From Pagrus major (Eukaryota; Chordata; Actinopteri; Spariformes; Sparidae): 64,000 nucleotides of DNA. How positions within the stretch are numbered: position 1 is the first letter of the stretch; every line of letters begins with the position of its first letter. Made by a program: the position numbers and the translations under genes. Where the stretch lies: positions 1,612,501 to 1,676,500 of the forward strand of contig NC_133238.1 of assembly GCF_040436345.1 (NCBI RefSeq). Direction: 5' to 3'. Shown piece by piece: positions 27,401 through 59,900 of this stretch. The notes under the pieces were generated by a model. The model did not search any database. It saw nothing but the letters and a program-made list of their open reading frames with translations, and had not been told where the DNA came from.

Positions 27401-30400
27401 CGCGACTCCACACATTAGAACCGAAGTACACCATTCCGTCACACACGCATTTTACTCGCACAGTGGTCCCAGACCTCTACAAAGATAGCATACCTTTCCA
27501 TCCCTGCTACCTTCGTTCCACATGACCGTGTTTTTTCTTTCTTTCATTCTTTTTTTTTTTTTTTCAACTGTAGGAGACCTAGTTGGTGCCTTAAGGCCTC
27601 AACTGCTGTCAGAAAACTTAGATGTGCTTGCAATCTTGAAAAAGAACATGACTATATCTTAGGCTAGGCAGTGTAGTTGTAGCTAGCTCTCAACTCTGTG
27701 TCATGCTTGAAGAGAAATTTGGTGAGTCTATTTGCACTGTAAAAGTAATACTTTGATTATGGTTTGCCCTGAAAAAATAAGACTAACAAAAACGTAGTGT
27801 TACTTATTTTGTTATTTATACTGTTTATTTTTTACTTTTAATATGTGGAAGGGAGTCCCATTAGACAGTCACACACAGCTTCAAATACAAGTTAGAAACT
27901 CGCACATAGTTTATGCACAGTTATAAGTTATGAAACGCCTCATGAGAGATAATACAGGAGAGAAGTCAGTTGAGTTTGTGGCAAAACCATAGCGCTTACA
28001 AACTGTTTGTGTATTCGTTGTTCTGCATGTGATAATTCGTCTTCAGTCAGAAGACCTGAAGTGACATTTATTACAAGATGAAATGTTTTTAACTAGTAAT
28101 AAAGATCGACCTGCATTATTTTGCATTTTGTGACTTTACATCAAATACATTTTTTAAGAAGTTTTCTTGAAAATGGTGTTTAAAATCTCATCTTGTTCTT
28201 GTGAACCCAATATCATGTATCGTCTCATGGGCTGAGTGCATCGTCACACCTCTATTAGGAAAAATGAGTATAATACAACTGACCCTTCATAAAATGGTAC
28301 TTTTTTTTATTTTTGTAATGATGAAAGCCAACCGATATCTCCATGCTTGTGTGTTTCAGATTTACATAGTTTACAACAAGAGGACGGGGAAGCCTCGGGG
28401 CTATGCATTCATTGAATATGAGCATGAACGTGACATGCACTGTGAGTACCAAGCTGGTTTGTATGGGTGCTGCAAGTATTTGAAAATGTTTAAATTTTAA
28501 TCTGTTTTCAGGGTTAGAAAAGTGCTTGGATTTTGGATAAAGTACTTGAAATTTTAACTACATTACTTTCATAATACATTGTTTTTAATATTGGCTCAGC
28601 CAGGTTATATAGAATGCCAAGTCTGTTTTCAGACTGGCGACACATTGAAACATGCAACTTTAATGTGTCACCCCCCTGTAAAATGCTAAAATTAAGATTT
28701 GTTGTTTTTAGCACAGTAGCATCTGACTTAATGTGTAGAGGTGAAATGATCATTTTGAGTGTATAAAATAGTAATTTACTGCTGGTGGAAGTGAAATGCA
28801 CCCTAGAAATGCTTGAAAAGTGCTTGAATTTGACTGGGAAAAAAGGTGTAGGAAACCCCGTGTGAAGCACTGAGCCAAAACCTTTCTCTATATGATCACA
28901 TGTTCATGAAGACAGATGTCTCTGACATGCAGTGTGGTTCTTCAGTTGAACTCCATTTACTTTATTTTACATGGATATTTCTGTTTATGATACTGGGGTG
29001 GCAGCATTCTCTTACACCTAGGGAAAGTGATCGCTACATAATGAGCAAATGAATGGAAATGGCATCAGAGGAATCAGTACTTTTTACAGACTTACGTTCT
29101 ACATTTGCATGTTTTAAAATCTGGGTCTGGTGGTTTTGTGATGTGTGTGTCTGTGTTTGATGCATGTCATCAGTTGACTAATAGTCTGGAGGAGGGGAAC
29201 TGCTTTATTCAATGCAATGGGCCATCTTGGGTGGGGTGGGGGTGGGGGGGGGGTCAACTGTCTGTCATTTGTGAACTTGAAAATCTTTGCCTTTCAACGG
29301 GCACATTGTCTTTTAACTGTTAGGCGTTGTAGCTCTGTGGGAAAGCTGCTCTCGTGGTTGGACTCTAATGGTAAGCACAAAGTCAGACTGGTCACCAAGC
29401 ATAGAATGGGTTTTGTTTTTTTTTTGTTTTTTTAACAGAACAGTGTTAATGACTGTATGGAACCCCATCTTTTGTATGAATAGGAATGGAGCTTGTTTGT
29501 CAAAGTTTTTATTGGTGGTCTTCAACCCTGGTCATGGTGAGATTAGTTAAACTTCAGCACACGAGTGAGAGATTTCAAGCTGGAGGTGATACCACAGTGA
29601 ATAATGGAGTACTGTCTTTTTAGACAAGTGAATGGTGCCATCTAACACAATGACACCATTCTGGGATATTGGTGAGATCAGCTCTTCAAGACCAGAGTTG
29701 CTGAATCACAGCAAGCATGTAGTCACAGCAGGGGATGAACTGAGGGGGGATGTGGGGCTAAACGGTATATTAACTGTGTGTTGTTCTCATTGCCACTGCA
29801 GCCGACAATCTGTGATGGCTATTGGCCAGAGCTGGCTGGCAGATGATGATGGTTATGATACATCTACACCCTACTACCACAGCTCAGTATATGGTTGGTA
29901 TAATGGGTTTGTATGATGGGTAAGATTTCTTTCCACCCTCCATCTCCTACATAGGGAAGAGGAGCTACGTTCAATGGGTAAAGCGTCATACTTTGCAAGC
30001 CCTGAAGTGCTTTAAGTGCAATTAATACTACTATAGTCTTTGACCATTGAACGCACCCCTGACTACTATTGTATTAAATGTCGCCCAATGACTCTGCCCT
30101 TTATGTGAAAGCCACCTCAGGTCACTGAGGGCACATGCTTCGCAATAGTAGTGTCTTAGCTGTATAGAGAGACAAAGAGTCAGTGATCAAGAGAGAGAAA
30201 TCAAATGTGGTGTGGCACAGCTGTCAATCCCACCAGCTTCTTGTGGAGATTGTTGTGATGAATGTTGTGCAGATTAACTGAATTTGATGCAGCTTTCCAA
30301 AAATAGTGATGCTATTTCAGTCTTTATTGTTGCATAGTAATAAAATTATATAAATATTAGGGGTGTCACGATCTCCAAGTCCTCGATTTGATTTTTGATT

Positions 30401-32565
30401 TTAAGGTCAGGATTCGATTCTCGACCTTTTTTTCTTTTAGCACAGATGGCCTACATGGTGTTGTAAGTGATATAATCGCCATTATTTGTTTGCAATGTAC
30501 CACACTAAGGCCTTTTTGTTACATTTAAATAATTTTTGAACAATATAAATGTAACAATAGCTTGTTTCACCAGTCAATTGGAAACTTAGTCATAGAGGGT
30601 ACCTGCCATCTAGTGACTCTCTTTTGTAACTGCAGATGTGAAGAGCGCACACTTAATGTAGTGTGTTGTGATGTTCATGTAGCACTGTATTGCTCTGGAG
30701 GTCCAGCAATCTGTTGTTAAGGCCACTAAGTCTGCACTGCTCTGACTTTTTCCTTCACATTATCATACTGGAAGGGCAACACCTTTGTGATAATTTCGTA
30801 GCGTACCACTGAATAAGGTTGCATGCCTGATGCTACAAATACCCCTATAGCGCTAGTTATTGCTTTAGCGTGAAATGAATTTTGTGGAAGTTTAGCTCTA
30901 AATGAGGATGGAAGAGTTGCATGTGTTAATGATGTAGTTTCTCAATTAAGTCTACTTCTTTATGATGCCTGCGGAGACGTCCTGCCATATTTGTTGTGTT
31001 GCCTGTGGACGCGTATGCTACATGCGCATAGCATATCTTACAAACTGGTTTTCTTGTCGTTGTTGACATAAGTCACCAGGAATGTCAAATAGTTCAGGAG
31101 GGGGTTCAAGTTCAGTTGATGTGTCTCCTATATCAGCAGTTGCCATGGTGTCTTTTCATTGGTTGCTTCAGGTTAGAGGAGGTAATGTTACCTCGCTGGG
31201 CTACAACATGCTGTGTGTGTGTTTTTTCCCTCTTGGCACGCCTGCCGGACGTGATGCTGGCGGCGTGGCGAAATCCTCGATTACAAAGGTTGAGATCGTG
31301 ATGTCATTTCGATCGATATCCAACTTACAGTCGAGATTGTGACACCCCCAATAAATATAGGTCAGCAGGGAAAGCACTTGTGTAAATAATTCAATAATTA
31401 TCATAATATAAATTATTTTCAATAGGAGTAAAAATGGAACTGAAGAATTTTAGTCCAGCTTTGAATTTTTGTTGGTAAATTCCGAAACAAATGTAGTTAG
31501 TTCATTAAAAATGTGTGACTGTCTCTACCCTCTAGTTTGTAAAGATGGGTATCCTGTACTTATAGGGTTAACACTTCAGCTCAACTGGCACTGATGGCAG
31601 ATGCAAGTAGTAGAAGCTGTCTTTTAACTCAGATGTTGAGCAGCCTGCTCATGTCAATCTGTACTTTTTAACATCATTTAAGGTACAGTGTGTAATATGT
31701 AGTGACATCTAGCAGAACAGACCTATCAGAAATGGAATATAATATTCATAAATGTTTTAATTAGTGTATAATCACCCAAAACTAAAAGTTGTTGTTTTTA
31801 TTACCTTAGAATGAGCTGTTTATATCTACATAGGGAGTGAGTCCCTGTCCACTGAGGTGTCCATGTTGCATTGCCATGTTTCTACAGTAGCTCAGAACGG
31901 ATAAACCTGGCACTAGTGAGGGCCTTTCAGGTTTTTTAATTTAGTGGGCAGCCACCGGAAATGCACCGGTTGGAAGAAGAGCGGTGGCTGCTGTTTCCTG
32001 CCAAACAATTTGTGTTGTGAGAAACCAAGTTTGAAACCACAATCCGATAAAGAATGGCTGATCATACTTATTTTGTACAAGAAAAATCACAGGAACATGA
32101 ACCGTTGTCAAAGAAACGAAAACCCGGGACAAGATCTATTTTGATTTACACCTTGTCTTTTGCAGTAAGACAGCACATGGAGCGATAACTAAGTATAGGG
32201 CTGGGAGTGTGCGAAAGACAGTCGAAGTAATGACTTAGTGTGACAGATACTGAGGAGAAGTCTGCTCATTACTGAGTTAATGAATTCTCTATTTTTTCAC
32301 AGTGCTCCATAATGTCTTTTGTATGATCCAAATTATTTAAAAAGAATTTCCCCTTGTGGGATTAAAATAGTATAATAAATTAAAAATTAAATTTAAATTT
32401 TGTAGACTTGTAATCTATAGTTTTATAGACTAAATAATTAAATACATCTTCACCTCATCACTTGAATTAGTAGAAATTCTCAGAGGGCCACTGTAGGATT
32501 GTTGCAATCTAGAATCTCACTGCTAGAATCCACTATCCACAATACTCAATATATTACACACTGTA

Positions 32566-32603
<38 letters not shown>

Positions 32604-35600
32604 AACATTTTTCTGAGACTCCATTCCTCAAACTGCTAATTTTCTATGCAAAACATTGAGCAGCTGGCTGCATGTATAGCCTGATTAGTTTAATACAGTT
32701 CACAATCCATTTTTAATCTAGAAAATGTTAAACTCATTTGGGAGGTTAATGCATAATACTATTCAAACTAGTAAGTCTGAGCTGGCTTTAATAGAAAAGG
32801 CAGATGAGGGGAATTTTCTTTAATTATGCTAAATAGGCTATTAATACATTATTTATTCACTACATGACTAAAGGTTAGACTAGACACTAGTTATTGCCTT
32901 ATAGATTGATTCATAACAATAGTAAGGTTAAGATTTTCAACTAAATGGTTCCTCCACATTCAACTTTTGACATGTCAGGAGATTAGGAGTTTAGACACTG
33001 GATGCCCCAAATCAGGTCCATATTTCAGGCCACTTTAGATCCAAGACATGTGTTAGGGACAGGATTTCATTGAATTATTTATTAAATTTATTTATTTTTT
33101 TGTTAAAACAAAGTTTGTTTCTCATTGTTTGGTTTGGGTTGTGATAAGGCAACTTCTGCAAGGAAGGTGGCCCTGTTCTTTTTGTTTTGTTTTTGTTTTG
33201 TTTTTTTTCCCAGTTGGCAGTTTTGGTAGGACTGGTGGGGGTTTGGTAAGGCCCTGTCATTGGATGGGATGTTGCCATCCTTAGTGAACACAGGAAGTGG
33301 TGGGGTTCTGGTAAGGCCCTGTTGTTGTGACAGTATATGTATTCTGGTGCTGAGGGGTTTTTGGTAAGGCCCTGAGACTGCAGATTTTCATATGGCCCAT
33401 GGTTGAGGCAATATGGTAAGACCATCAACTGTATAGTATGTGTGAGGGAGTTTGGTAAGGCCCTCAGAATGTATATGTGAGGATTTGGTAAGGCCCTCAG
33501 ACTGTATGCTGTACCACATGGGTGTTGGTAAGGCCCTTCTACTTGGATTTAAGTTATGTCCTCTGGGATCATCACCACTTCAGACCAGTGTGGCAGCCAG
33601 GATGAGCTGCCTGGATCTCGCCAAGTACTTCCATCATACAGGATGGATCGGAAGACTGTTGTATGGTATAATGGGATGAGGTGTGGGACGAAGTTTGAAT
33701 GTACACAAGTTTGGAAATATGCCAAATGCTGGAGACTCCTTGTTGTCAAAATCTTGCTCTTGGTTGCTTCAATCATGTTGCTTTGTTATGAAGCTTGTAC
33801 AAGGCTTGAGCAGATTAAAGACACTGCAACAGAACAGTCTACCGCCATTTGAATATTTGGTTTAATAATTAGGAGTCCAATTTGCCTGACCAGTTATATG
33901 CTCCTCTGTACAAAGAATACATTAGTGATTGTGGAGACAAACTCTGGATTTTAATTGTTCAAAAACCTGGATCAACAGTTTTTTGATTTCCAAAACGATG
34001 TAATTTCATCTCTAAACAGCCTGTAAAATTATATATTTTTCAGGGGTAGTGAATACACTACCAACAATTATAACAGCGGAGCTTTAGTAATTAATAAATA
34101 TAACTGTATTGTGAACTGTCCCGACAGATTTGGTTAAATATGCACTGTCAAGGGAAATGACAATCACAACGGATTAAGACCTGTTTTGAGATGATGTTTC
34201 ACACTGTGGGTTGAGAGTAGGGGTGGGCGATATGGCAAAAATATCATATCACGATTTTTCAAAAATAAAATCACGATTTCGATTTTATCACGATCTTAAA
34301 TCAAAAAAAGAAAAACAGACAATTTAGGCCAAAGAACCTTTTGAACAGATTTTAATTTAAATAGTTGCAGTTTTGCCAACATGTGCAAACAACGTAAACA
34401 TACTAAAAGGTAAACAACACTCTGATAAAGTGCACTCTTGCAACATAAAAGGTAGCTTTCAATAAACATGAAAGTAAAATATCAATGAATACATTACTGT
34501 TTGTTTTATTCAACACAGTCATTTTAACAGGATTTAAGTACATCAAAACCCTAAATAGCTTATTGAAAAGGGTCCGTCAGTGGTCGGACTATCCGACGGG
34601 GGGGTGGGGGGGTCGTGGTAATTTGAACACTGTACAATTAGCGCATTTACCGTTTATTAGTGGCCAAGCGCGACCTATCCATGCACCCGTGTGTGTGTGT
34701 GTTTGTGCGCGCGAGAGAGGCAGCAGGTGGAGGGGCTAACTGGCAGAGATGAGAGATGGTGAAACGCTGTTTTTGTTTTGTTTTTAAAAAGCGACCAACT
34801 CCTCCGTTTGGCTTTCAGCCATCGCTCTCCATGCGGCTACTGCTACACACAAAAACAAGGAGGCGGGTAAGAAAGCGTGTCACTGCCTGTCATTCACTAT
34901 GATTGGTCGGTCAGGTTGACGATGTAAAACGTTTGGTGCGTCGGTGCATCAGCATAGAACTGCAATTTATAGAATGTGCCCTAGACGATCCCTACGATCT
35001 CTGCACTTTGGCAGATCGTCTTCATGTTGTAATCGTTCACGATTTAATATCGTCATATCGCCCACCCCTAGTTGAGAGTTCTTCTTTGCCACAGTCAAAC
35101 CTGGATCAGATTCAACATTTATTCAGCAAAATATGAGGAGTCACTTTTCACTCTGCTTGTTCAATAGTAGTATTTTTAAAAAGGTTACACCCCAATGAAT
35201 TTGGATCCAAACTAATATCCTTAAGACATCCTGAACAACTTCAAATTGCTACCAATATATCATTTTTAGCCACACTGTTATTTAATGAAGACAGTGAAAG
35301 AACTGAATGCTTGGTAGTTAAATGATGCAGTTAAAAGTATAACACATCAGTCACTCATCGGGTGGAAGGAAGTCAACTCCCATTATCCTTCGGCTTTTAC
35401 CCAGAGAGCAGCCATCTCGGCCTCACCTGCTCCTGGTCAGTATAATGACGCACTGTTTGTTTCCTTTGCCACAATCATGCCGTTATATTTGCATATAACC
35501 TTTGTCTTCCTTCTCCCCATTCCTCTTCTTCAGCCGCCTACAAACATGCAGACGGGAAGAAGATCGATGGTAGAAGGGTGTTGGTGGACGTGGAACGAGG

Positions 35601-38600
35601 ACGCACTGTCAAAGGATGGCATCCTCGCAGGCTAGGTCAGCTGCCTTTTTATGTATTGAGTTTCAAAGCTGTGTGCTACGCAAGTTTTCATTTCACCCGA
35701 AAGACTGACAGACTCACAGACAGAATACACTGAACCCAAATAAAACAAGAGAATGGGTAAATGAACCAGAGGTGTTAAAACTCCACTGACAGTGTTATGA
35801 ACACAGCCTAAGCCATGTGGTTGTGCTAAATACTTTGTCTAATGTAGTTTAATTTTCTGGCAATATACATAGTCAACACTATTGGCTTACTGGTGTTTTT
35901 TCCCTGTCAAAATTATTATTCACAGCCTTCACCCAGCACACCTATTACTGACTACAAGGCACGGGTCATAATGACCGCTCACCACTGTCAACGTTTTTTG
36001 TGCCTCTGATTAATGTCTTCGTGTCACTCCGCAAGTAGTCCATTCATTTGTCACGATGCAACTTCATTCAAAGCAGAGCTCCACTAAAGAGCCTGCAATC
36101 GTTGCAGAAGGTTATCTGATGTGTTCTAAGAATTTTGGACGTGTGGGGCGAACTGTTTCTTTCTTAGCTGAAGCCGACAACGGGACAAAATAAATGTAAA
36201 GAGAGACATGGTGGAGTTCCTATTTTCGTTTTGACAAGTATAATAAATTCTGTAGTCTACCCCTTACATGACCTGGCAAGTGACATTATTCTAAAACGCA
36301 CAAGAATAACTCCCCCGACATGGTTAGAAAATACTGCCTCTAGGCCTGTCACAATTATTATATAATCGCCTGATAGCGATTATTTGAGCTGACCGCGATC
36401 ATTTTGCATAATCGTCAGATTCCACAATCAAGGGAATTCTACTTCAATGTTAGAAATGCCGCATAAACATGCTTGGATGGAAACATGGTGTTTTAAGAGC
36501 AGCGTGGCTCCTTTTTTAAGAGTGTAGCGAGTGGTGAAGCTGGAGATAGAGAGACGTGACTGAGCTCAGAGCTAACAGGTGTGGGTGATGGAGAAGAGAA
36601 TAAATTAACAGTAAAGTTGTCTAGTAGTAGTAAATGTACAGTTTTGGTTTCTGTTTGTCTCTGAGTAAATGCTGCAGCTCCTCAGGACCCAGGAAAGTTC
36701 CTGTGTCTTGCTTCCCAGCTGCTGGGTAAAGTGAGGGAGGAGCTAGGCTAACGGTTAGCCCCGAAGTTAGCATCAACTTCGGCCCTGGAGGCAAACCAAA
36801 GTCTCTGCTGTCCTTCCCGACCACGGTCTAGAAGCTGAAGCAGGAACGGTTATGGAAATGAGGAGAACATGACTTGCCCTGCCTCGTCGGCATGCAAACA
36901 GTAATCAGGAGTAAATGCTAAACATCATTGATGGACTCGGGTGCTGAGCTCTCACCCAGCGCGTGTCCTGGCATGGCAGCGTGCAGCATGTGCCCAAGCT
37001 TTCTCCACCTCACATGAGTTGGGGAGAGAAGTCACCCCCTCCCAGGTGGGCTGCTTCTCCAAAATAAACCAATAGCAAAGCCCGTTAGAGGGCGTAGCAC
37101 GTACAAAATAGAAGTAAGGCTCACGACAGCTACAAGCAAGTCAGAGCCAAAGTTAACGTCAAATGTATTGTCAGTAGCGTTATATATATATACACGACAT
37201 ACAGAGGACGCGTGCCGTGTAAATATGGATGTGACAGTTATTATTTTCAGGTTGCGGTGAAAAGAAAGAAGTGTCTGAATAAAGTGGTTGTCTCCGATAG
37301 TCTGCATGTGGGGGTAATTGTTTACTTAAGCATTATACGTTGTTTTATTATTCTTAGCATTCACACCTCTTTCCCGTGATATATGTGTTGCTGTTGTCAT
37401 TAGATTATGCTGTATAAGTTTCACGTCAGTATGACAAATATCGTAGCGTTATTAGTGCCAGACATGTAGGCTATGTCATGCTGAGACTTTAGCAAGAAAT
37501 AATTGTTGTCGGTCTCTATCGCTCTTCTAAACAATGCAAAAGTAATGTTTGTTTGTTCATACGTTCAATTTGTTCAGGAGAGAAAGGTAAAGTACTTTCT
37601 TACCTGTAATTCGGCCATGGTAAGTGTATGACAGAAAAGTTCCGACGTGAATATTCCAAGCGCTACAGTCGCGCGCGTCCACGAGAGTGGAAAGTGAAAG
37701 TGTGGAGCCGGAGTCGAAACGGGGAGGGGAAGGGGGAGCGCAGTTGTTTCCATCCCAGTCTCATGCGTTTTTCACATATTCTACAAACTCCAGCTTTAAA
37801 CTAAATAAAGTGATCCACTGATCATTTTTGTCATGGTGCCATTAACATTAATGTGAAACGATTCCGGGGGGGGGGGGGGGTTCCCTGCTTTTTTGTCCTT
37901 TGCCAATCACACCTATGGTTATTACTATCTGCAGAATAACTAAGACGATAATACCAAGACCTCTACATTAACTCTGAGCACTGCATCCAGAGGTTCTGCA
38001 GAACAAATGAAAATATTGAGGAACCTGGTCAAACACTTCACTGAATCTGTTTATTATTGCAAACCGTGATGCCTGAGTGGGCAAGACGTTGATCAAACAT
38101 TGCAGTCCTGTATCTGTGCTCCTGTTGCGGCACAGACCAGTAAATGGCTCTGTGCTTTCTTCCTTTGTCAATTTTCCCTTGTATTGATGCCAAGGCTTTT
38201 GGGTCTCTGTAGCTCAGCGTTCAGTGCTGGGCTTAAAAAGGTTCAAACATGCATATCTGATACTTGCATGTAGCAGAATATTGATTTCTCCATTTTAGCT
38301 GTGTTCAGATGGATGAGCAAAATAATGTCTGCCTTGATAGCATTCCAGACTTGATGACATCAAGTCTTGGGGTCCTAACTTAACAAATTTAACTCGTTCC
38401 TATGTCCGGCTTGTTTTTCCTAACCAGGTGGTGGATTGGGTGGCACTAGGAGAGGTGGAGCTGACGTCAACATCAAGCACTCTGGGCGAGATGATGCATC
38501 TCGTTATGATGATCGTCCCCTGGGCGGGTGAGTACTGTCAGGGAAGACCTGTCATTTGGCATAAAATTGTGTGCTGCTGTGTACAACAGTCTTTGCTTTC

Positions 38601-47900: not shown

Positions 47901-50900
47901 TACGTTATTTTGATGCAGATTGCTCAAAATTTATAGAAGTAGAAAAGAAACAGATGAGGACTAAATTCAAAATGACAGAAAGTCTTTTTTGGGCTCTAAT
48001 GGGCATGGTTTACATGGATAGATTTGTCTGGACCCAAAGAATTCTGCAAAACTTTAATTTAAAAGTCTGTATTCCAAAAAAGTTAATTGTTAATATACAG
48101 ATACTGTCAGAGTGCTGCTTGCAGTGGTCATTGCCCTGTCATGAAAATGGGGTCTATTATGTCCAAACCATTTTACAGTCCACAGCCTATCTTAATTTGA
48201 CAACGCTTGTTACATTGATACATCCAGTCATGTAACTGGAGATTAAAGGTGCCTAAACTCTTTTTATAGACTTTTTTTTAATGTGGAATAGACTTTTTTT
48301 CACTGATCACACGGTTGCCCTCCTGACCAGGCCACAGTGGCAGCCTTTGCAGCCAGCGAGGGACACGCTCACCCACGGGTGGTGGAACTGCCCAAGACAG
48401 AAGAGGGTCTGGGCTTTAACATCATGGGTGGGAAAGAGCAGAACTCGCCCATCTACATCTCAAGAGTGATCCCTGGGGGAGTGGCCGACCGCCAAGGAGG
48501 GCTGAAGAGAGGAGACCAACTGCTGTCTGTCAACGGAGTGGTAAGGAGCTCAGGCCCACTGTGAACCGCTCAAGTCCCACAGAGAGGAGCAACACACACT
48601 CTGACAAGTTTAATCTAATGTCGGTTTACATTTTTTTTCACATAGTTTTAAAAATGTAGACATATTTCTGATGCTGCCTTTCTCAAAGCAATTTCAAAAG
48701 TGTTAAAAGAGTAACTGAATGTCAGGCTAATACGCGCTGTTTCACCATCCTCTTCTGATGGAAAGTTTTAAGTCTGTCAGACCACAACCACAGCCAGCAG
48801 TAATCTGCTCTTCTGTGTGAGAAAGTGAGAGCTCAACCACCAGAGGTCAGCAAAAAACAGCTTCAACTGGTGTAAAGTGCAGATTAACCCAAAAACAGAA
48901 GAGGACCGTGTTTATTACTTTATTGTACCTGCATGCAAAAATGTGATCACACATTTGCAGATAGATACCATGCAAGGACTGATCCGTGCAGACACCCACT
49001 GAGATGGGTTGATGACAAATGCAGAACCCTGCAGACAAGAAAACTTAAAGGGGACATATTATGCAAAACTCACTTTTTCCTTGCTTTAGTATGTATATTT
49101 GCGTATCCGGAGGGCCTCCCCACCCCTTAAGCATGATTTTTCGACAACTAAGTCAATGTTTCGTAAACTACCGGAGTCAGGGATTGGGTCTCTAAACGAG
49201 CCGTTTGGATTTCGACCGGATTGTGACATCACAATCCGGTCTTTTGCATACTCCAGTCCTCGCGCTGGCTATCTCCTCCCACACTTCGCCAGCTACCTGG
49301 ACGAGGATCCGCCATTTTCTCGTTCTCGCTTAACTTGTACGCGACAGCCTGACAGCTACCATGTACAACCCGAAAGCCGAGCACTGCTGCTCTGTCGTCG
49401 GATGCACGGATCCTCCTGTTTCGCTACATGGCCTCCCTACCAAAGAGGATATCAGAGCGAAGCGGCTACATTTTATTTATCAGGGAAACGTCCCAGCTTC
49501 AGTGAGCAAAAGCGTTATGGTCTGTGCCAGTCACTTCACGCCGGACTGCTTCAGCAACCAGGTCAGGACTGGACGCTGGACTGGCAACAAGATTGTCTCT
49601 TAAAAGATGGATCCATACCCACTGTCAATGATGGAACTGTAAGTATTTAAAAAACAGTGTAGTTTGTGTTACTTTGGCCGTTTAGCACATGAGCTAACGC
49701 TAACGCTAACCGTCGATGTAAATATGAGGCTGAACTAACGTGAAGTTATCAACGTTGGGCTTACTGGCCGTAGTATTCACGATAATGTTAATGTTACCAA
49801 ACGTTAATTTGTCATATCAGCACTCTTTTAAAACATGACAGTGAATTGAGAAAATGAATTAGGATATTGAGATTTTATCGCTTCTAACCGGCCGGTGAAC
49901 CACTGCTCGGCCGTGAACAAGCAGAGGAGATTGTATGAAATCGTCTGAGTTGTTCGCGGACGGTGAGCTGCTGTTCCGCCGTGAACACGCAGAGGAGAAG
50001 GGGTGAAATGTCTCGGTTGTTAGCGGACGGTGAGCTGCCATTCCGCCGGGAACAAGCAGAGGAGATTGTATGAAATCGTCTCAGTTGTTAGCGGACGGTG
50101 AGCTGCTGTTCCGCCGTGAACAAGCAGAGGAGACGGGGTGAAATGTCTCAGTTGTTCGCGGACGGTGAGCTACGTTAATTCATTAGCATGTTGTGCTAAA
50201 GGACAGTGACCTGCACGTTACCTGCAGTAAAGCAATCACTACTTTGTTTTGGAGCCGGAGACAGGGGTTAGCTGCTACATGTCTGCTGTGCTACTATCAG
50301 TTATATGCAGGCATGGACACAGAAAAGTTGCTTCGCAAATGTGTATAGCTCGTTGCCATGGTCACGCGATGCCGTCCTCACGTCTTCCGCCCGGCAGGAA
50401 GAGGTGGGCGGCACACGCAGTAGCTCATTAGCATTAATGGGAAAGGCACTCAAACCAGCCGCTTAAAACAGGGCTGTGAAACTGGTGTGTAAACACCCCT
50501 GCTGTGCTCAATCCTTCGGTTTTTTCGACCAAAGCATGTTACTATCATTCCATTTAGACATCAAGGAACCATGTCAACAAGCAGAAATGAGCATAATATG
50601 TCACCTTTAAATTAGCTCTGCTCTTTAATACGTGTACTCCTTGTTCAGCATGTCAGCACCTGTACATGGAATGACTGACAAGTAACAAGCAATTTATTAA
50701 TGATCCATGTCAGGATGGATATGAAACTGGACTTGAGAGAAATGAGCAATAAAGATTTTATGTATCTTATAGTCAAAATATTTTCTAACATGTCAAAATG
50801 TTCTTTAGATTCCTGAAAAAGGATAAAGGTGTCATTTAAGGGTTAAATATGATATTTTGAATATTTATATAACAGCAAACAGCTTTTTGCTTTGTAAAGA

Positions 50901-53900
50901 TAGAGTGGAGTAGTGAAATGAGCAATGCAGTAAAATATTCTTGATTCATATTTGACCAGCACTGACTAGTTTGGTGAACTCCATTTTAAAGTAGCACACA
51001 AAATGGCAGCTGTCTTGTGAAACTTGCTCATATAGCTTCACGGTGCATTAGAATATGGTTCTGTATAGATTTTAAGGGACAAATACTCTATGCAGTAACA
51101 GAGTACTTCATATTTATATGAAGTATAAATATTCACATTTGATGCTAATTTGACAGTTTTGATCTGAGATATTAGCCATCATTCAAAGCAGTACACAACA
51201 TAGTTGCAAGACTTATAGGCTATGCATGATATCTAGTGGCAGTGAATTTTTAAGGGTCAGTACACCACATTACAAAAAAAACCTTCTCACTTCTTGTGGT
51301 TTTAAGGTGTTTATTTTGGTTTTATTTACTAAAATGTGATTAGCATATGTGTTATTACTTCATTGAATTGAGTATTAAAGGTAGAGTTAAAAGATAATTT
51401 TTGTTTATTGTCTTAACATGACAAAACAATTGTAGATATTGTGTGTTGGTGCCCATGCAGAGCGTTGAGGGGGAGCACCATGAGAAGGCTGTGGAGCTGC
51501 TGAAGGCTGCCCAGGGTTCAGTCAAGCTGGTGGTCCGCTACACCCCAAAGGTCCTGGAGGAAATGGAGGCTCGCTTTGAGAAGATGAGAAGTGCCCGGAG
51601 ACGACAGCAGCACACCAGCTACTCGTGAGGCTGCTCGTTAGTCTACACCCAGTCACCACTGTTAATATATACGGATACACACTGTCAGTGTGCACCAAAT
51701 CTAAACTACATATGAAATCTATACAATATGTACTACATACAAATCATCATAGTATGCACTTTCAGGAGTTCATAAACAGAAAATTAACAACATTTTCCAT
51801 TTCATACAAACAAAATTCAGTTGAGTTTGCTTGCTCTTTCTGGTTCTGTGTGCGTTTTCTCTTACAATCCAAAGACTTACATCCAGTGGTTCATGTGGTT
51901 CTATTTCAAGATGAATTTTCTGGATAATGACATTTGATCACAGGCCTTTAAATTTACACCTGCTCTTATCTTATCTTATCTTGAATTATGATCAAATCAC
52001 AATATGCAAATAAGGAAGGTGAAGATGGCAGACTTGTCTAACTTCAAGGAAAGCTAGGCAACAAGGCGTGCAAGGCTTTCAGTCCTCTATTCAGGCCCAA
52101 GGGATGCCCTAGGACGGATTTGATTCAACGCGCCTCCTCTATATCCACATGAACTCCGCAGCACTTACTTGTTGTTGACTGAAGGTCTGGGTTGAGATGA
52201 GTGATTGATGAATGGTGATTAATGTCGATGAATGGTGATGAATGTCAATGAATGGTGATGAATGGTGATGAATGGTGATGAATGTGGATGAATGGTGATG
52301 AATGGTGACGAATGTCGATGAATGGTGATGAATGTGCATGAATGGTGATGAATGGTGATGAATGTGGATGAATGGTGATGAATGGTGACGAATGTCGATG
52401 AATGGTGATGAATGTGCATGAATGGTGATGAATGGTGATGAATGTGGATGAATGGTGATGAATGTCGGTGAATGGTGATTAATGGTGATGAATGTGGATG
52501 AATGTCGGTGAATGTGGATGAATGTCGATAAATGGATGAATGGTGATGAATGGTGATGAATGTCAATAAATGGTGATGAATGGTGATGAATGGTGATGAA
52601 TATGGATGAATGGTGATGAATGGTGATGAATGGTGATGAATATCGATGAATGGTGATGAATGTCGATAAATGGTGATGAATGTCGATGAATGGTGATGAC
52701 TGTCAATGAATGGTGATGAATGGTGATGAATGGCGATGAATGGCGATGAATGGTGATGAATGTTGATGAATAGTGACGAATGGTTATGAATGATGATCAA
52801 TGGTGATAAATGGTGATGAATGGTGATGAATGATGATCAATGGTGATGAATGATGATGAGTGGTGATAAATGATGATAAATGTCGATGAATGGTGATCAA
52901 TGGTAATTAATGGTGATGAATGTGGATGAATGGTGATGAATGTCGATGAATGATGATGAATGTCGATGAATGGCGATGAATGGTGATGAATGTTGATGAA
53001 TAGTGACGAATGGTGATGAATGATGATCAATGGTGATGAATGGTGATGAATGATGATCAATGGTGATAAATGATAATGTATGTCGATAAATGGTGATGAA
53101 TGGTGATGAATGTTGATGAATGTGGGTGAATGTCGATGAATGGTGATGAATGGTGACGAATGTCGATGAATGTGGATGAATGGTGATGAATGGTGATAAA
53201 TGATGATGAATGTCGATGAATGGTGATGAATGATGATGAATGTGGATGAATGGTGATGAATGTGGATGAATGTGGATGAATGGTGATGAATGTCGCTGAA
53301 TGTGGATGAATGGTGATGAATGAGGATGAATGTGGATGAATGGTGATGAATGGTGATTAATAGTGATGAATGTGGGTGAATGTGCATGAATGGGGATGAA
53401 TGGTGATGAATGGTGATTAATAGTGATGAATGTGGGTGAATGTGCATGAATGGGGATGAATGATGATCAATGGTGATAAATGGTGATGAATGGTGATGAA
53501 TGGTGATGAATGGTTATAAATGATGATGAATGTTGATAAATGGTGATGAATGGTGATGAATGATGATCAATGGTGATAAATGATGATGTATGTCGATAAA
53601 TGGTGATGAATGGTGATGAATGTTAATGAATAGTGACGAATGGTTATGAATGATGATCAATGGTGATAAATGGTGATGAATGCTGATGAATGCTGATGAA
53701 TGATGATCAATGGTGATGAATGATGATGAGTGGTGATAAATGATGATAAATGTCGATGAATGGTGATGAATGGTTATTAATGGTGATGAATGGTGATGAA
53801 TGTGGACGAATGGTGATGAATGTGGATGAATGGTGATGAATGGCGATGAATGGTGATGAATGGTGATGAATGTTGATGAATAGTGACGAATGGTGATGAA

Positions 53901-56900
53901 TGGTGATAAATGGTGATAAATGATGATGTATGTCGATAAATGGTGATGAATGGTGATGAATGATGATGAGTGGTGATAAATGATGATAAATGTCGATAAA
54001 TGGTGATGAATGGTGATGAATGATGATGAGTGGTGATAAATGATGATAAATGTCGATGAATGGTGATGAATGGTGATGAATGGTGATGAATGTGGGTGAA
54101 TGTCGATGAATGGTGATGAATGGTGATGAATGTGGATGAATGGTGATGAATGGTGATAAATGATGATGAATGTCGATGAATGGTGATGAATGATGATGAA
54201 TGTCGATGAATGGTGATGAATGTGGATGAATGGTGATGAATGTCGATGAATGGTGATGAATGGTGATGAATGGTGATGAATGGTGATGAATGATGATCAA
54301 TGGTGATAAACGATGATGAATGGTGATAAATGGTGATGAATGGTGATGAATGATGATCAATGGTGATAAATGATGATGAATGTCGATAAATGGTGATGAA
54401 TGGTGATGAATGGTGATGAATATGGATGAATGGTGATTAATGGTGATGAATGGTGATGAATATCGATGAATGGTGATGAATATCGATAAATAGTGATGAA
54501 TGTCGATGAATGGTGATTAATGGTGATGAATGTGGATGAATGTGGATGAATGTGGATGAATGTCGCTGAATGTGGATGAATGGTGATGAATGAGGATGAA
54601 TGTGGATGAATGGTGATGAATGGTGATTAATAGTGATGAATGTGGGTGAATGTGCATGAATGGGGATGAATGGTGATGAATATAGATAAATGGTCATGAA
54701 TGGTGATGAATATCGATAAATGGTGATGAATGGTGATTAATGTTGATGAAAAGGTGATGAATGTTGATGAATATCGATAAATGGTGATGAATGGTGATTA
54801 ATGTCGATGAAAGGTGATGAATGGTGATAAATGGTGATGAATGTTGATGAATGGTGATGAATGTTGATGAATGTGGATGAATGTCGCTGAATGTGGATGA
54901 ATGGTGATGAATGAGGATGAATGTGGATGAATGGTGATGAATGGTGATTAATGGTGATGAATGTCGATGAATGGTGATTAATAGTGATGAATGTGGATGA
55001 ATGGTAATGAATGATGATGAATGTGGATGAATGGTGATGAATGATGATCAATGGTGATAAATGGTGATGAATGGTGATGAATGGTGATGAATGGTTATAA
55101 ATGATGATGAATGTTGATAAATGGTGATGAATGGTGATGAATGATGATCAATGGTGATAAATGATGATGTATGTCGATAAATGGTGATGAATGGCGATGA
55201 ATGTTAATGAATAGTGACGAATGGTTATGAATGATGATCAATGGTGATAAATGGTGATGAATGCTGATGAATGATGATCAATGGTGATGAATGATGATGA
55301 GTGGTGATAAATGATGATAAATGTCGATGAATGGTGATGAATGGTTATTAATGGTGATGAATGTGGATGAATGGTGATGAATGTGGACGAATGGTGATGA
55401 ATGTGGATGAATGGTGATGAATGTCGATGAATGGCGATGAATGGTGATGAATGTTGATGAATAGTGACGAATGGTGATGAATGGTGATGAATGGTGATAA
55501 ATGATGATGTATGTCGATAAATGGTGATGAATGGTGATGAATGATGATGAGTGGTGATAAATGATGATAAATGTCGATAAATGGTGATGAATGGTGATGA
55601 ATGATGATGAGTGGTGATAAATGATGATAAATGTTGATGAATGGTGATGAATGGTGATGAATGTGGGTGAATGTGGATGAATGGTGATGAATGGTGATGA
55701 ATGTGGATGAATGGTGATGAATGGTGATAAATGATGATGAATGTCGATGAATGGTGATGAATGATGATGAATGTCGATGAATGGTGATGAATGTGGATGA
55801 ATGGTGATGAATGTCGATGAATGGTGATGAATGGTGATGAATAGTGACAAATGGTGATGAATGATGATCAATGGTGATAAATGGTGATGAATGGTGATGA
55901 ATGGTGATGAATGATGATCAATGGGGATAAACGATGATGAATGGTGATAAATGGTGATGAATGGTGATGAATGATGATCAATGGTGATAAATGATGATGA
56001 ATGTCGATAAATGGTGATGAATGGTGATAAATGGTGATGAATGTCGATGAATGGTGATTAATGGTGATGAATGTGGATGAATGTGGATGAATGTCGCTGA
56101 ATGTGGATGAATGGTGATGAATGAGGATGAATGTGGATGAATGGTGATGAATGGTGATTAATAGTGATGAATGTGGGTGAATGTGCATGATTGGGGATGA
56201 ATGGTGATGAATATAGATAAATGGTGATGAATGGTGATGAATATCGATAAATGGTGATGAATGGTGATTAATGTTGATGAAAAGGTGATGAATGTTGATG
56301 AATATCGATAAATGGTGATGAATGGTGATTAATGTCGATGAAAGGTGATGAATGGTGATAAATGGTGATGAATGTTGATGAATGGTGATGAATGTTGATG
56401 AATGTGGATGAATGTCGCTGAATGTGGATGAATGGTGATGAATGAGGATGAATGTGGATGAATGGTGATGAATGGTGATTAATGGTGATGAATGTCGATG
56501 AATGGTGATTAATAGTGATGAATGTGGATGAATGGTAATGAATGATGATGAATGTGGATGAATGGTGATGAATGATGATCAATGGTGATAAATGGTGATG
56601 AATGGTGATGAATGGTGATGAATAGTTATAAATGATGATGAATGTTGATAAATGGTGATGAATGGTGATGAATGATGATCAATGGTGATAAATGATGATG
56701 TATGTCGATAAATGGTGATGAATGGTGATGAATGTTAATGAATAGTGACGAATGGTTATGAATGATGATCAATGGTGATAAATGGTGATGAATGCTGATG
56801 AATGATGATCAATGGTGATGAATGATGATGAGTGGTGATAAATGATGATAAATGTCGATGAATGGTGATGAATGGTTATTAATGGTGATGAATGTGGATG

Positions 56901-59900
56901 AATGGTGATGAATGTGGACGAATGGTGATGAATGTTGATGAATGGTGATGAATGTGGATGAATGTGGATGAATGGTGATGAATGGTGATGCATGCACCAA
57001 AACAACACACGTGTGTATTCAAACGTGTTTCAAATTCAAATAAACAACCTTTGTTTTAATAAAACAAACAACTGAGATTTTCTTTCTATTAAAGGAACTT
57101 GGGACAGGATTTGTGAAAAAATAAACATGCATTTTATGTTTTTTAATGCTAATGGGTGATGAAGCGTTCAAAACCAAAAAGAATGAGCCCACCCACATAT
57201 CTGTCCATTGCCTTGAACAGGCTGTGTGCTGCATAATGTACTGCAATTCGTGGTCTGAATTTCCCGTACAGTCTTGCGGATGTGACGTCCGATGACGCTG
57301 AATATGTGTCCTTGGATACGGGAAGAAGACAAGCGCGGTGGACCCAAACTAGTGTTTGGGTAGTAATGGATTCTGCTACGGCCAGCAAATGACCCACTAC
57401 CACACAAAGTCCACTAAAAAGTCATACTAAGAAGAAAACGAAGGTTTTATCAGCGGCACATTGTGAGTCGAAACGAAATTACGACCAAAGCCGTAGAGCA
57501 GAACCGGACGAACTTGGACCGGGAACTGGTGACAAAGGCGTACAAAAGCGTGTGATAGCGTGACTTCGCTGGAGACTTTTAGAAGGTAACTGGTGTTTAT
57601 CCGATTTTGTGTGTGACACCAGCAACACACTAAATGTGCCCAATTTGATGGTCCTCTTGCAGAGCGTACACTGCGCTTCAGATTCATTATTATGCAGCTT
57701 TTAACCAACTGAATTCTGGTTGTTCAAGCCAACACACTAAATTTACACTTTCCCATAGTTGTAGCAGATTCCGCAGTCGAAGTCTTTCCGGAACTGGCGA
57801 AGTGTACGGCAATAAATTCCGACCGGGCTGCTGGCAAAATGCCACTTAGTTCCTGGATACTTCAGAAAGAAGTACAACACACGGAGCTAACTGTGAATCT
57901 CACCAACACATTGAAAATTGGTTTGATTTGATTTTTTTTTTCCAGCAATGACAGCGCTCCCATTGTTGGACTCTCATCTGGATTTGTAAAGATCAACTGA
58001 TCATTGGTTTTATGCCTTGACAACTGTCACTTACATTTTCAATTCCATCAAAAGATTTGACAGTTTGACATTATCCTGGTGCCTTTTTCGCAGGTTATGG
58101 TTAGGCAAGTTAAAAAAAATATTCACCAACAATACCACCTTTCTGGGATCAACAATAAAAAACAAAGGATAGAAATTCAGTCCGTTACAAAGTTCAGTTT
58201 CATAAATCTGTCCCGAGTAAACCCTCTTCCCAAACAAATCAATAAAGGATCTCTGAAAAATAAAGTAAACCCCACATCTCTGATGCTGCGGGAGTTACTG
58301 CCAGTACGAGTCAGTTAATCATCTTCGTGCCCAAAGGATAAGTAATTGGAAATGCAGCTGTAGGCTGCTGGTAAGCTAGCTGTGTCATCTTTAAATGTTT
58401 GGGGTTTTTTTTGGCATTTTCATGGCTTTATTTTAAAGTACAAATTAGAGAGATGACAGGAAATGGGGATGGGAGAGAGGGGGGATGATATGCAGCAAAG
58501 GGCTGCAGGTCGGAGTTGGACCCTGGGCAGCTGCAGTGAGGACAAGGCCTCTGTACATGGGGCGCATGCTTTACCAATTGACCTACTAGAGCACCCCAGC
58601 TGTGTCATCTTTGATGTGTTGTTTCTTTTCCTTCGGACACATGCAAGGCGGGGGTCACAGGCAGAAATCACGGGGTGCCGGAGATTTGTCCCCCTCAATA
58701 ACCTATATCATTGTAAAGATGTAATTTAAAATAATACAATGATATGCATTGAAAACAATTGCACTAATTAAAGACGCAAAATAATGTGTTTTTAGGTTTT
58801 TAAAGATTGGTTCCCCGTTTCATATGCCCGAGTGGTGCATCTCCACTCGGGCAGCCTGCATCTCCACATGCTTTAGCGCTCACTACATAGAGCGGTCCCT
58901 GGGAGTGTGGTCGTGGTGCTGGCTGACCATAGTAAGAAGCTACTTTGCAAGTTAACTTAAAACAAAATATGCTATTTGTCTCTTTTCATTAAGCTGTGCT
59001 TATACTCTGGTTCAGTTTAAGCAGAGCATAGTGTTTTAGCTGAAAATAGCTAACTGCTTTGGTCGCCACAAACGCTGCTGTAGATGGCCCGACTTCCTGT
59101 CAAAAATATTGTTTTTTTATGTCGACACAGACATGGCTGGGAAATGTCCCAAGTTCTCCTTAAAAATATCCAATTTACATTTTATAAATGTTGAAACGCC
59201 GCGGTCCCTTGTTACAAATATCCACTCTCTGCTCACCTCCTGACATGACAGTCACTTAATCAACATGAAACATGAACATGATATGACACGTTTTGTGGAA
59301 ATGTTAGTACAATACATGTGCAGATATATAACTCATTTTATTAAATGATTTAATCCTGGTGACTGGGCTGAAAGATGTGTCTTACATTTTTATTTACTTT
59401 ACCATTAATTGAACAAATCACATTCACAATTATGACTGTCCTGTGGCCGAAATATTGGTACTTAGCAGCCGTGTCTATTTTCATGCTGGTACAACCCTGA
59501 AGTTATTTACCCCTTTCATTTCATCGAGTATAGTTGAATAGGAGGCCTATAATCAGCACTTCCTCTATATTTATTAAGTATAACACTACTTTTGGCGGCA
59601 CCTTCGGTGTCCCCTTCAGGAATTCCACTTGAGAATATTAAGTTTATTCTTAAACAGTGACGTGAAATATCTGCCCTTAACAGGGATGGAGAGAAAATAA
59701 AAGAATCGCAGATCCTGGCTTTGATTTTAAAGATCGAAATTGTCAATTGTCATGTGGGGCTTAAAGTACTAGTTGCTGGAAATGTGTGTTACCAGTGTAA
59801 GGGCCCTCTCATGCTTGGAGGGAATAGCAATTTACTGAAGGGATGGATATTCTTCTCATGGAAAGTCCTACACAAAGATGCACTTTCCAATCTGGTACTT

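Follow-up and report, generated by a model that had tools for sequence, protein, structure and literature searches.

A seven-unit array of U1-type 5′ splice sites in snrnp70 intron 7 of Pagrus major, a candidate companion to the published exon 7a switch

The genes for U11-48K and U11/U12-65K contain an element, the USSE, in which 5′ splice sites in tandem switch on a 3′ splice site upstream of them via exon definition and thereby lower functional mRNA (PMC5473595). A related arrangement is known for U1-70K, whose exon 7a, in human, mouse and zebrafish, depends on U1C and contains a cluster of 5′ splice sites (Rosel-Hillgartner 2013, PMC3798272). That paper describes a product with a premature stop that is removed by NMD in human cells, and a U1C effect repeated in mouse cells and zebrafish embryos. 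It gives scores of 5.29, 3.38 and 8.91 for the three 5′ sites of exon 7a, mentions a site D further downstream, and reports that the remainder of human intron 7 is largely unspliced after the alternative 3′ site has been used in human cells. The minigene employed there retained positions 1928–2227 of human intron 7, a block spanning 61–70% of its 3162 nt (PMC3798272). The likeness between the U1-70K and U11 switches is drawn by this paper itself and by PMC5473595. An earlier note on the DNA described below had held that an equivalent of the U11 switch on the U1 side would be new. This was wrong, because a poison exon of U1-70K that is driven by U1 sites was published in 2013 (PMC3798272). The logic that it proposed, in which abundant U1 fills clustered sites, activates an acceptor and lowers snrnp70 mRNA, is indeed published for this gene; the claim of novelty fails, as the published element is exon 7a (PMC3798272).

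The window is a 64,000-nt stretch of the Pagrus major genome that carries part of snrnp70 on the plus strand. Exon 7 (28360–28441, numbered as in the human paper) was identified by translation and encodes the RNP1 sequence RGYAFIEY, while exon 8 (35534–35635, also plus strand) was placed by its reading frames, its end being inferred from AG/GT at 35634–35637. The peptide encoded by the two exons matches human U1-70K (3cw1_K, residues 132–192) across 61 of 61 residues. Between them lies intron 7 (28442–35533), which is 7092 nt long and in phase 1. The gene looks to be single copy: the genome, an assembly of 786 Mb in 25 contigs, gives four hits with the U1-70K protein, two of which are near-identical and represent the window's own exons. 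A paralogue with the same intron was dropped as a candidate, since the non-self hits are 46% and 40% identical. Two stretches of the intron, 31680–32569 and 34218–35070, each lie between the arms of an exact inverted repeat, 19 nt long in the first and 17 nt in the second, and are probably inserted transposable elements. Elsewhere the window contains a satellite at 52206–56994, with about 239 copies of the 20-nt unit TGATGAATGGTGATGAATGG, and a tandem repeat at 49889–50171 made from roughly four copies of a 68-nt unit.

By alignment to the human antisense-target string, an orthologue of poison exon 7a is present in the window at 29802–29919 (plus strand) and was overlooked in the earlier note. 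Its predicted acceptor AG lies at 29800–29801 and its donors A, B and C have their GTs at 29894, 29898 and 29920. The query consisted of 40 nt assembled from the printed antisense oligos that span the three sites, and the naming of donors A and B is likewise inferred from these oligos. Of the string, 39 nt align at 29887–29926; 37 are identical and 2 mismatched, and there is 1 gap. The local score is 33, whereas the best of 500 shuffles reached 18.5. The block has a single match in the genome, itself. Frame reading indicates that use of the exon 7a acceptor leads to a premature stop, the TGA at 29813.

Further along the same intron, 33245–33537 contains an array of seven cores in one orientation, six of which are exactly GGTAAGGCCCT and the fourth of which is GGTAAGACCAT. 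As located by motif search on the plus strand, unit 1 occupies 33245–33255 (donor GT at 33246), unit 2 33310–33320 (33311), unit 3 33363–33373 (33364), the variant unit 4 33415–33425 (33416), unit 5 33454–33464 (33455), unit 6 33487–33497 (33488) and unit 7 33527–33537 (33528). The seven GGTAAG-centred motifs that had been described within about 290 bp, six of them with one exact sequence, are thus all in place with the positions and spacing given. Also as described, a T-rich tract and a CAG acceptor lie ahead of the array in the intron after the RNP1 exon (33180–33213, plus strand); the acceptor AG at 33212–33213 ranks fifth of the intron's 431 AGs by a rough matrix. Just 5′ of the T-rich tract, GGTGGCCCTGTT at 33166–33177 resembles by eye a degenerate eighth unit that lacks the TAAG part. 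A protein-coding repeat on the minus strand was rejected, the unit lengths being 65, 53, 52, 39, 33 and 40, of which only two are multiples of three.

When exon 7 is joined to 33214, frame reading meets an in-frame TAG at 33282–33284 on the plus strand, as the earlier note had stated for entry from 28441. Its second statement on the frames, that use of the first donor shifts the next exon into a stop, was borne out as well: the first donor yields a 32-nt exon and puts exon 8 in a frame that reaches TAG at 35633. This exon is short for exon definition. The other six donors (2–7) all run into the stop at 33282, hence a premature stop is predicted with seven of seven donors. Read in this way, the sequence of snrnp70 intron 7 contains an array acceptor, a downstream cluster of 5′ splice sites and a premature stop.

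The density of the motif is far above that expected. From the intron dinucleotides 0.07 GGTAAG would be expected in the 293 nt of the array, against 7 observed (about 100-fold, Poisson P ~2e-12), and once the array is masked, no 300 nt of the window carry more than one GGTAAG on the plus strand. Across the 786 Mb assembly the exact pattern of an adjacent pair (gap 10–40) occurs twice, each time within the array, while the reversed-pattern control has no match. The 571-nt region 33150–33720 finds only itself in the genome by a DNA search in which simple repeats and words of very high frequency are passed over. No similar array was found near the U1C gene or the other zf-U1 hits, where four stretches of about 9 kb contain at most two GGTAAG per 300 nt, and viral contigs gave no relatives of the array. 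Rfam lists four matches over 28000–36000 at E up to 5, all far under the gathering score.

By rough matrices the array donors fill seven of the first 13 ranks among the 497 GTs of the intron, five of them tied. The same matrices place the exon 7 donor at rank 25, and donor C and the acceptor of exon 7a at 22 and 13; since these known sites rank at 13–25, the ranks serve just as a guide. Six array sites are predicted to pair with the U1 5′ end at −8.5 kcal/mol, and unit 4 at −8.0. The exon 7 donor gives −6.9 by comparison, and donor C of exon 7a −9.2. Two isolated intron sites match or beat the array values (29371 at −8.0 and 34867 at −10.5 kcal/mol), and the exonic side of every array site is poor, with T at −2. 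A variant U1 snRNA whose longer 5′ end would fit the whole motif was considered and dropped, as the canonical U1 5′ end is found in 30 of the 30 loci fetched, out of at least 42 matches. Of the 42 matches listed, 33 cluster at 5436813–5481214 of the contig that carries snrnp70 (C24), mostly 809 bp apart.

The array is present in a single copy and is an element distinct from exon 7a. Exon 7a sequence was not found in the array, the best alignment of the human target within the intron being that at 29887, and no extended similarity links exon 7a with other parts of the intron. The best word common to exon 7a and the block just past the array is the 12-nt TGGTATAATGGG, at 29896 and 33664. Words of this length also turn up in 14 of 500 shuffles of 33540–33800 and in 53 of 200 intron shuffles, and an origin of the array as a duplicated exon 7a was dropped. 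The array may correspond to the block 1928–2227 of human intron 7 or to site D; it starts about 67% of the way along its intron and the human block spans 61–70%, which is compatible, if weak as an indication.

Whether the units have been held alike by selection or are the remains of a neutral repeat can be judged from the contrast between cores and flanks. Within the 12-nt core there are 12 differences in 252 pairwise comparisons (4.8%), all due to unit 4, and GGTAAG itself has 0 in 126. The flanks differ in 137 of 252 (left) and 134 of 210 (right) comparisons, or 54–64%. As the columns were anchored on the core, which biases this contrast towards it, the exact repetition of an 11-mer is the stronger argument for selection. 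The rival explanation is a diverged minisatellite, in which a short unit with a chance GGTAAG was duplicated and is now decaying neutrally, a caveat that the earlier note itself had raised. Duplication did take part in the array, since the flanks of units 4–6 and of units 1–2 are related and three of 15 spacer pairs (2-4, 2-6 and 4-5) lie above their shuffled counterparts, with z of 2.7 to 3.7. In self-comparison 33404–33474 resembles 33443–33507 at 80%, the flanks of units 1 and 2 are 92% alike over 25 nt, and Tandem Repeats Finder reports part of the array (33414–33508). Likeness over the whole length of the unit, as in a minisatellite, is seen in part, in units 4–6 and 1–2. The other 12 spacer pairs, with z from −0.6 to 1.9 and thus below 2, are not clearly above shuffled sequence, and spacers 1–3 among themselves give z of −0.6 to 0.7 despite identical cores.

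A comparison with similar patterns elsewhere in the genome bears on the same question from both sides. There is no genome-wide class of GGTAAG arrays in excess of the reversed pattern, GGTAAGR triples being fewer (55 versus 154), and the triples outside the array look mostly minisatellite-like, which would suit a neutral origin here too. Against this, the spacer identity of the rows outside the array is at least 0.87 in 16 of 18, the exceptions being C2 (0.50) and C10a (0.73), and the rows of the array stand at 0.85 and 0.77. Of the 55 rows 20 were re-read, the 35 omitted being overlapping rows and seven places with incomplete sequence or a plain short repeat. The contrast is modest, because the array rows reach 0.85 and 0.77 and both cover the related units 4–7. 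Neutral decay would scarcely spare a 12-nt core, and the most economical interpretation is that the core is under selection. On these grounds the array does not appear to be a plain minisatellite and looks selected; the minisatellite caveat stands for the duplicated units, and as a full account of the array we consider it unlikely.

U1 pairing does not account for all that is conserved. GCCCT is kept in six of the seven units beyond the U1 duplex, and U1 base pairing fails to explain this conservation. Of the six G-runs of three or more in the array, five start 7–9 nt 5′ of a core (binomial P 0.005, the units not being independent). The position of GCCCT outside the duplex and the placement of the G-runs leave room for a second factor at the site. 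Taken further, the unit of G-run, T-run and GGTAAGGCCCT, which is longer than U1 pairing, could be a site for another RNA- or DNA-binding factor, with the match to a 5′ splice site being secondary. Folding might seem to favour this, as the units have a mean of −8.9 kcal/mol against −4.3 for intron windows. It does not, however, pick out the cores, as windows at every position of the region that holds the array have a mean of −7.1 (sd 2.8). Exchanging the arms of the hairpin among units gave no significant effect in 12 settings (p 0.15 to 0.54), and a model that places each GGTAAG in its own stem-loop was unsupported on both counts; a hairpin pairing the G-runs with CCC is possible. The longest invariant run, TGGTAAG, has six of its seven columns in the U1 pairing, although CC and T further on are invariant too, and all seven units point in the sense direction, exact antisense copies being absent from the window. 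That another factor is the main reader of the unit thus seems quite improbable. A combined arrangement can also be envisaged, in which the array would be a second, independent U1 sensor beside exon 7a, built from a selected unit (G-run, T-run and GGTAAGGCCCT) iterated seven times. U1 together with a factor reading GCCCT would then make snrnp70 output depend in a graded way on how many sites are occupied, instead of acting as a single switch. We regard this proposal as doubtful.

The next rival after the unproductive splicing or retention reading is U1 telescripting, in which the array would shield a long intron from premature cleavage and polyadenylation and would not control splicing. Candidate poly(A) signals do flank the array, with ATTAAA at 33081, followed by a GT-rich stretch, and AATAAA at 34093. 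Mouse Snrnp70 has a second non-productive event, whose annotation is an internal poly(A) site and for which the authors favour probable intron retention (PMC5062968). Such signals are nevertheless common in the intron (6 AATAAA and 8 ATTAAA), and for mere shielding seven near-identical 11-mers would presumably be unneeded. Telescripting as the role of the array is on balance a poor prospect.

The reading that we prefer, with a probability of about 0.45, is that the array is a U1 snRNP-binding cluster under selection which would add a second unproductive route to the U1C/U1-70K feedback. It is read as a U1 platform because the cores are kept, U1 pairing is predicted, the 30 U1 loci fetched have canonical 5′ ends and all seven donors lead to a predicted premature stop. 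A role in feedback is favoured because the gene already employs such logic at exon 7a (PMC3798272), and clustered-site feedback is plausible from the sequence at the array itself. Intact U1 snRNP would occupy several of the sites, and U1 at the near sites could define an exon reaching back to the acceptor at 33213, while adjacent bound particles may hinder one another. The 3′ part of the intron would then stay in the transcript, either within a poison exon that starts at 33214 or through retention of the remaining intron, with less functional snrnp70 mRNA in both cases. Retention is suggested by human intron 7, which stays mostly unspliced past its alternative 3′ site (PMC3798272). The array might act together with exon 7a. 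For the array we infer each of these elements, from selection and U1 binding through splice use and interference to the effect on mRNA and the co-operation with exon 7a, and we think that its occupied U1 sites would promote an unproductive outcome.

If the array works in this manner, the level of U1-70K would be set by two U1-reading elements in one intron, the ancient exon 7a and an array of many equal sites. It would then allow one to probe how the number and spacing of competing sites shape exon definition, intron retention and the hindrance of U1 particles by one another, and would offer a way to learn what reads the conserved bases past the U1 pairing. A U1-driven poison exon in U1-70K is already known. 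Among open-licence PMC papers, searches on the SNRNP70 poison exon, intron 7 and teleosts listed no description of the seven-site array, and the letters of the motif led to papers that are unrelated by title.

Set beside known systems, the array is reminiscent of decoy splice sites and decoy exons (OGT and others), which likewise lie in introns, look like splice sites and may impede removal of the intron. To our knowledge the known retention decoys are single exons and not iterated arrays. The array resembles the USSE in having tandem 5′ sites in the gene for a protein of the same snRNP and an upstream acceptor, here predicted from the sequence. The USSE, however, consists of tandem U12-type sites bound by U11, whereas the array has seven U1-type sites. 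The U12-type 5′ splice site consensus begins with RT; the motif repeated here is by eye the U1-type GGTAAG, and one CCATCCTTAG near 33275 is without the leading RT. The closest likeness is to the exon 7a switch: both lie in one intron of this gene, both have a group of closely placed U1-type 5′ sites behind an acceptor, and both have a premature stop. The exon 7a switch works in human, mouse and zebrafish, whereas the array is known from a single genome. The two also differ in layout: exon 7a has three unequal sites within about 26 nt in this intron, whereas the array, 3.3 kb downstream, spreads seven near-equal sites over 293 nt.
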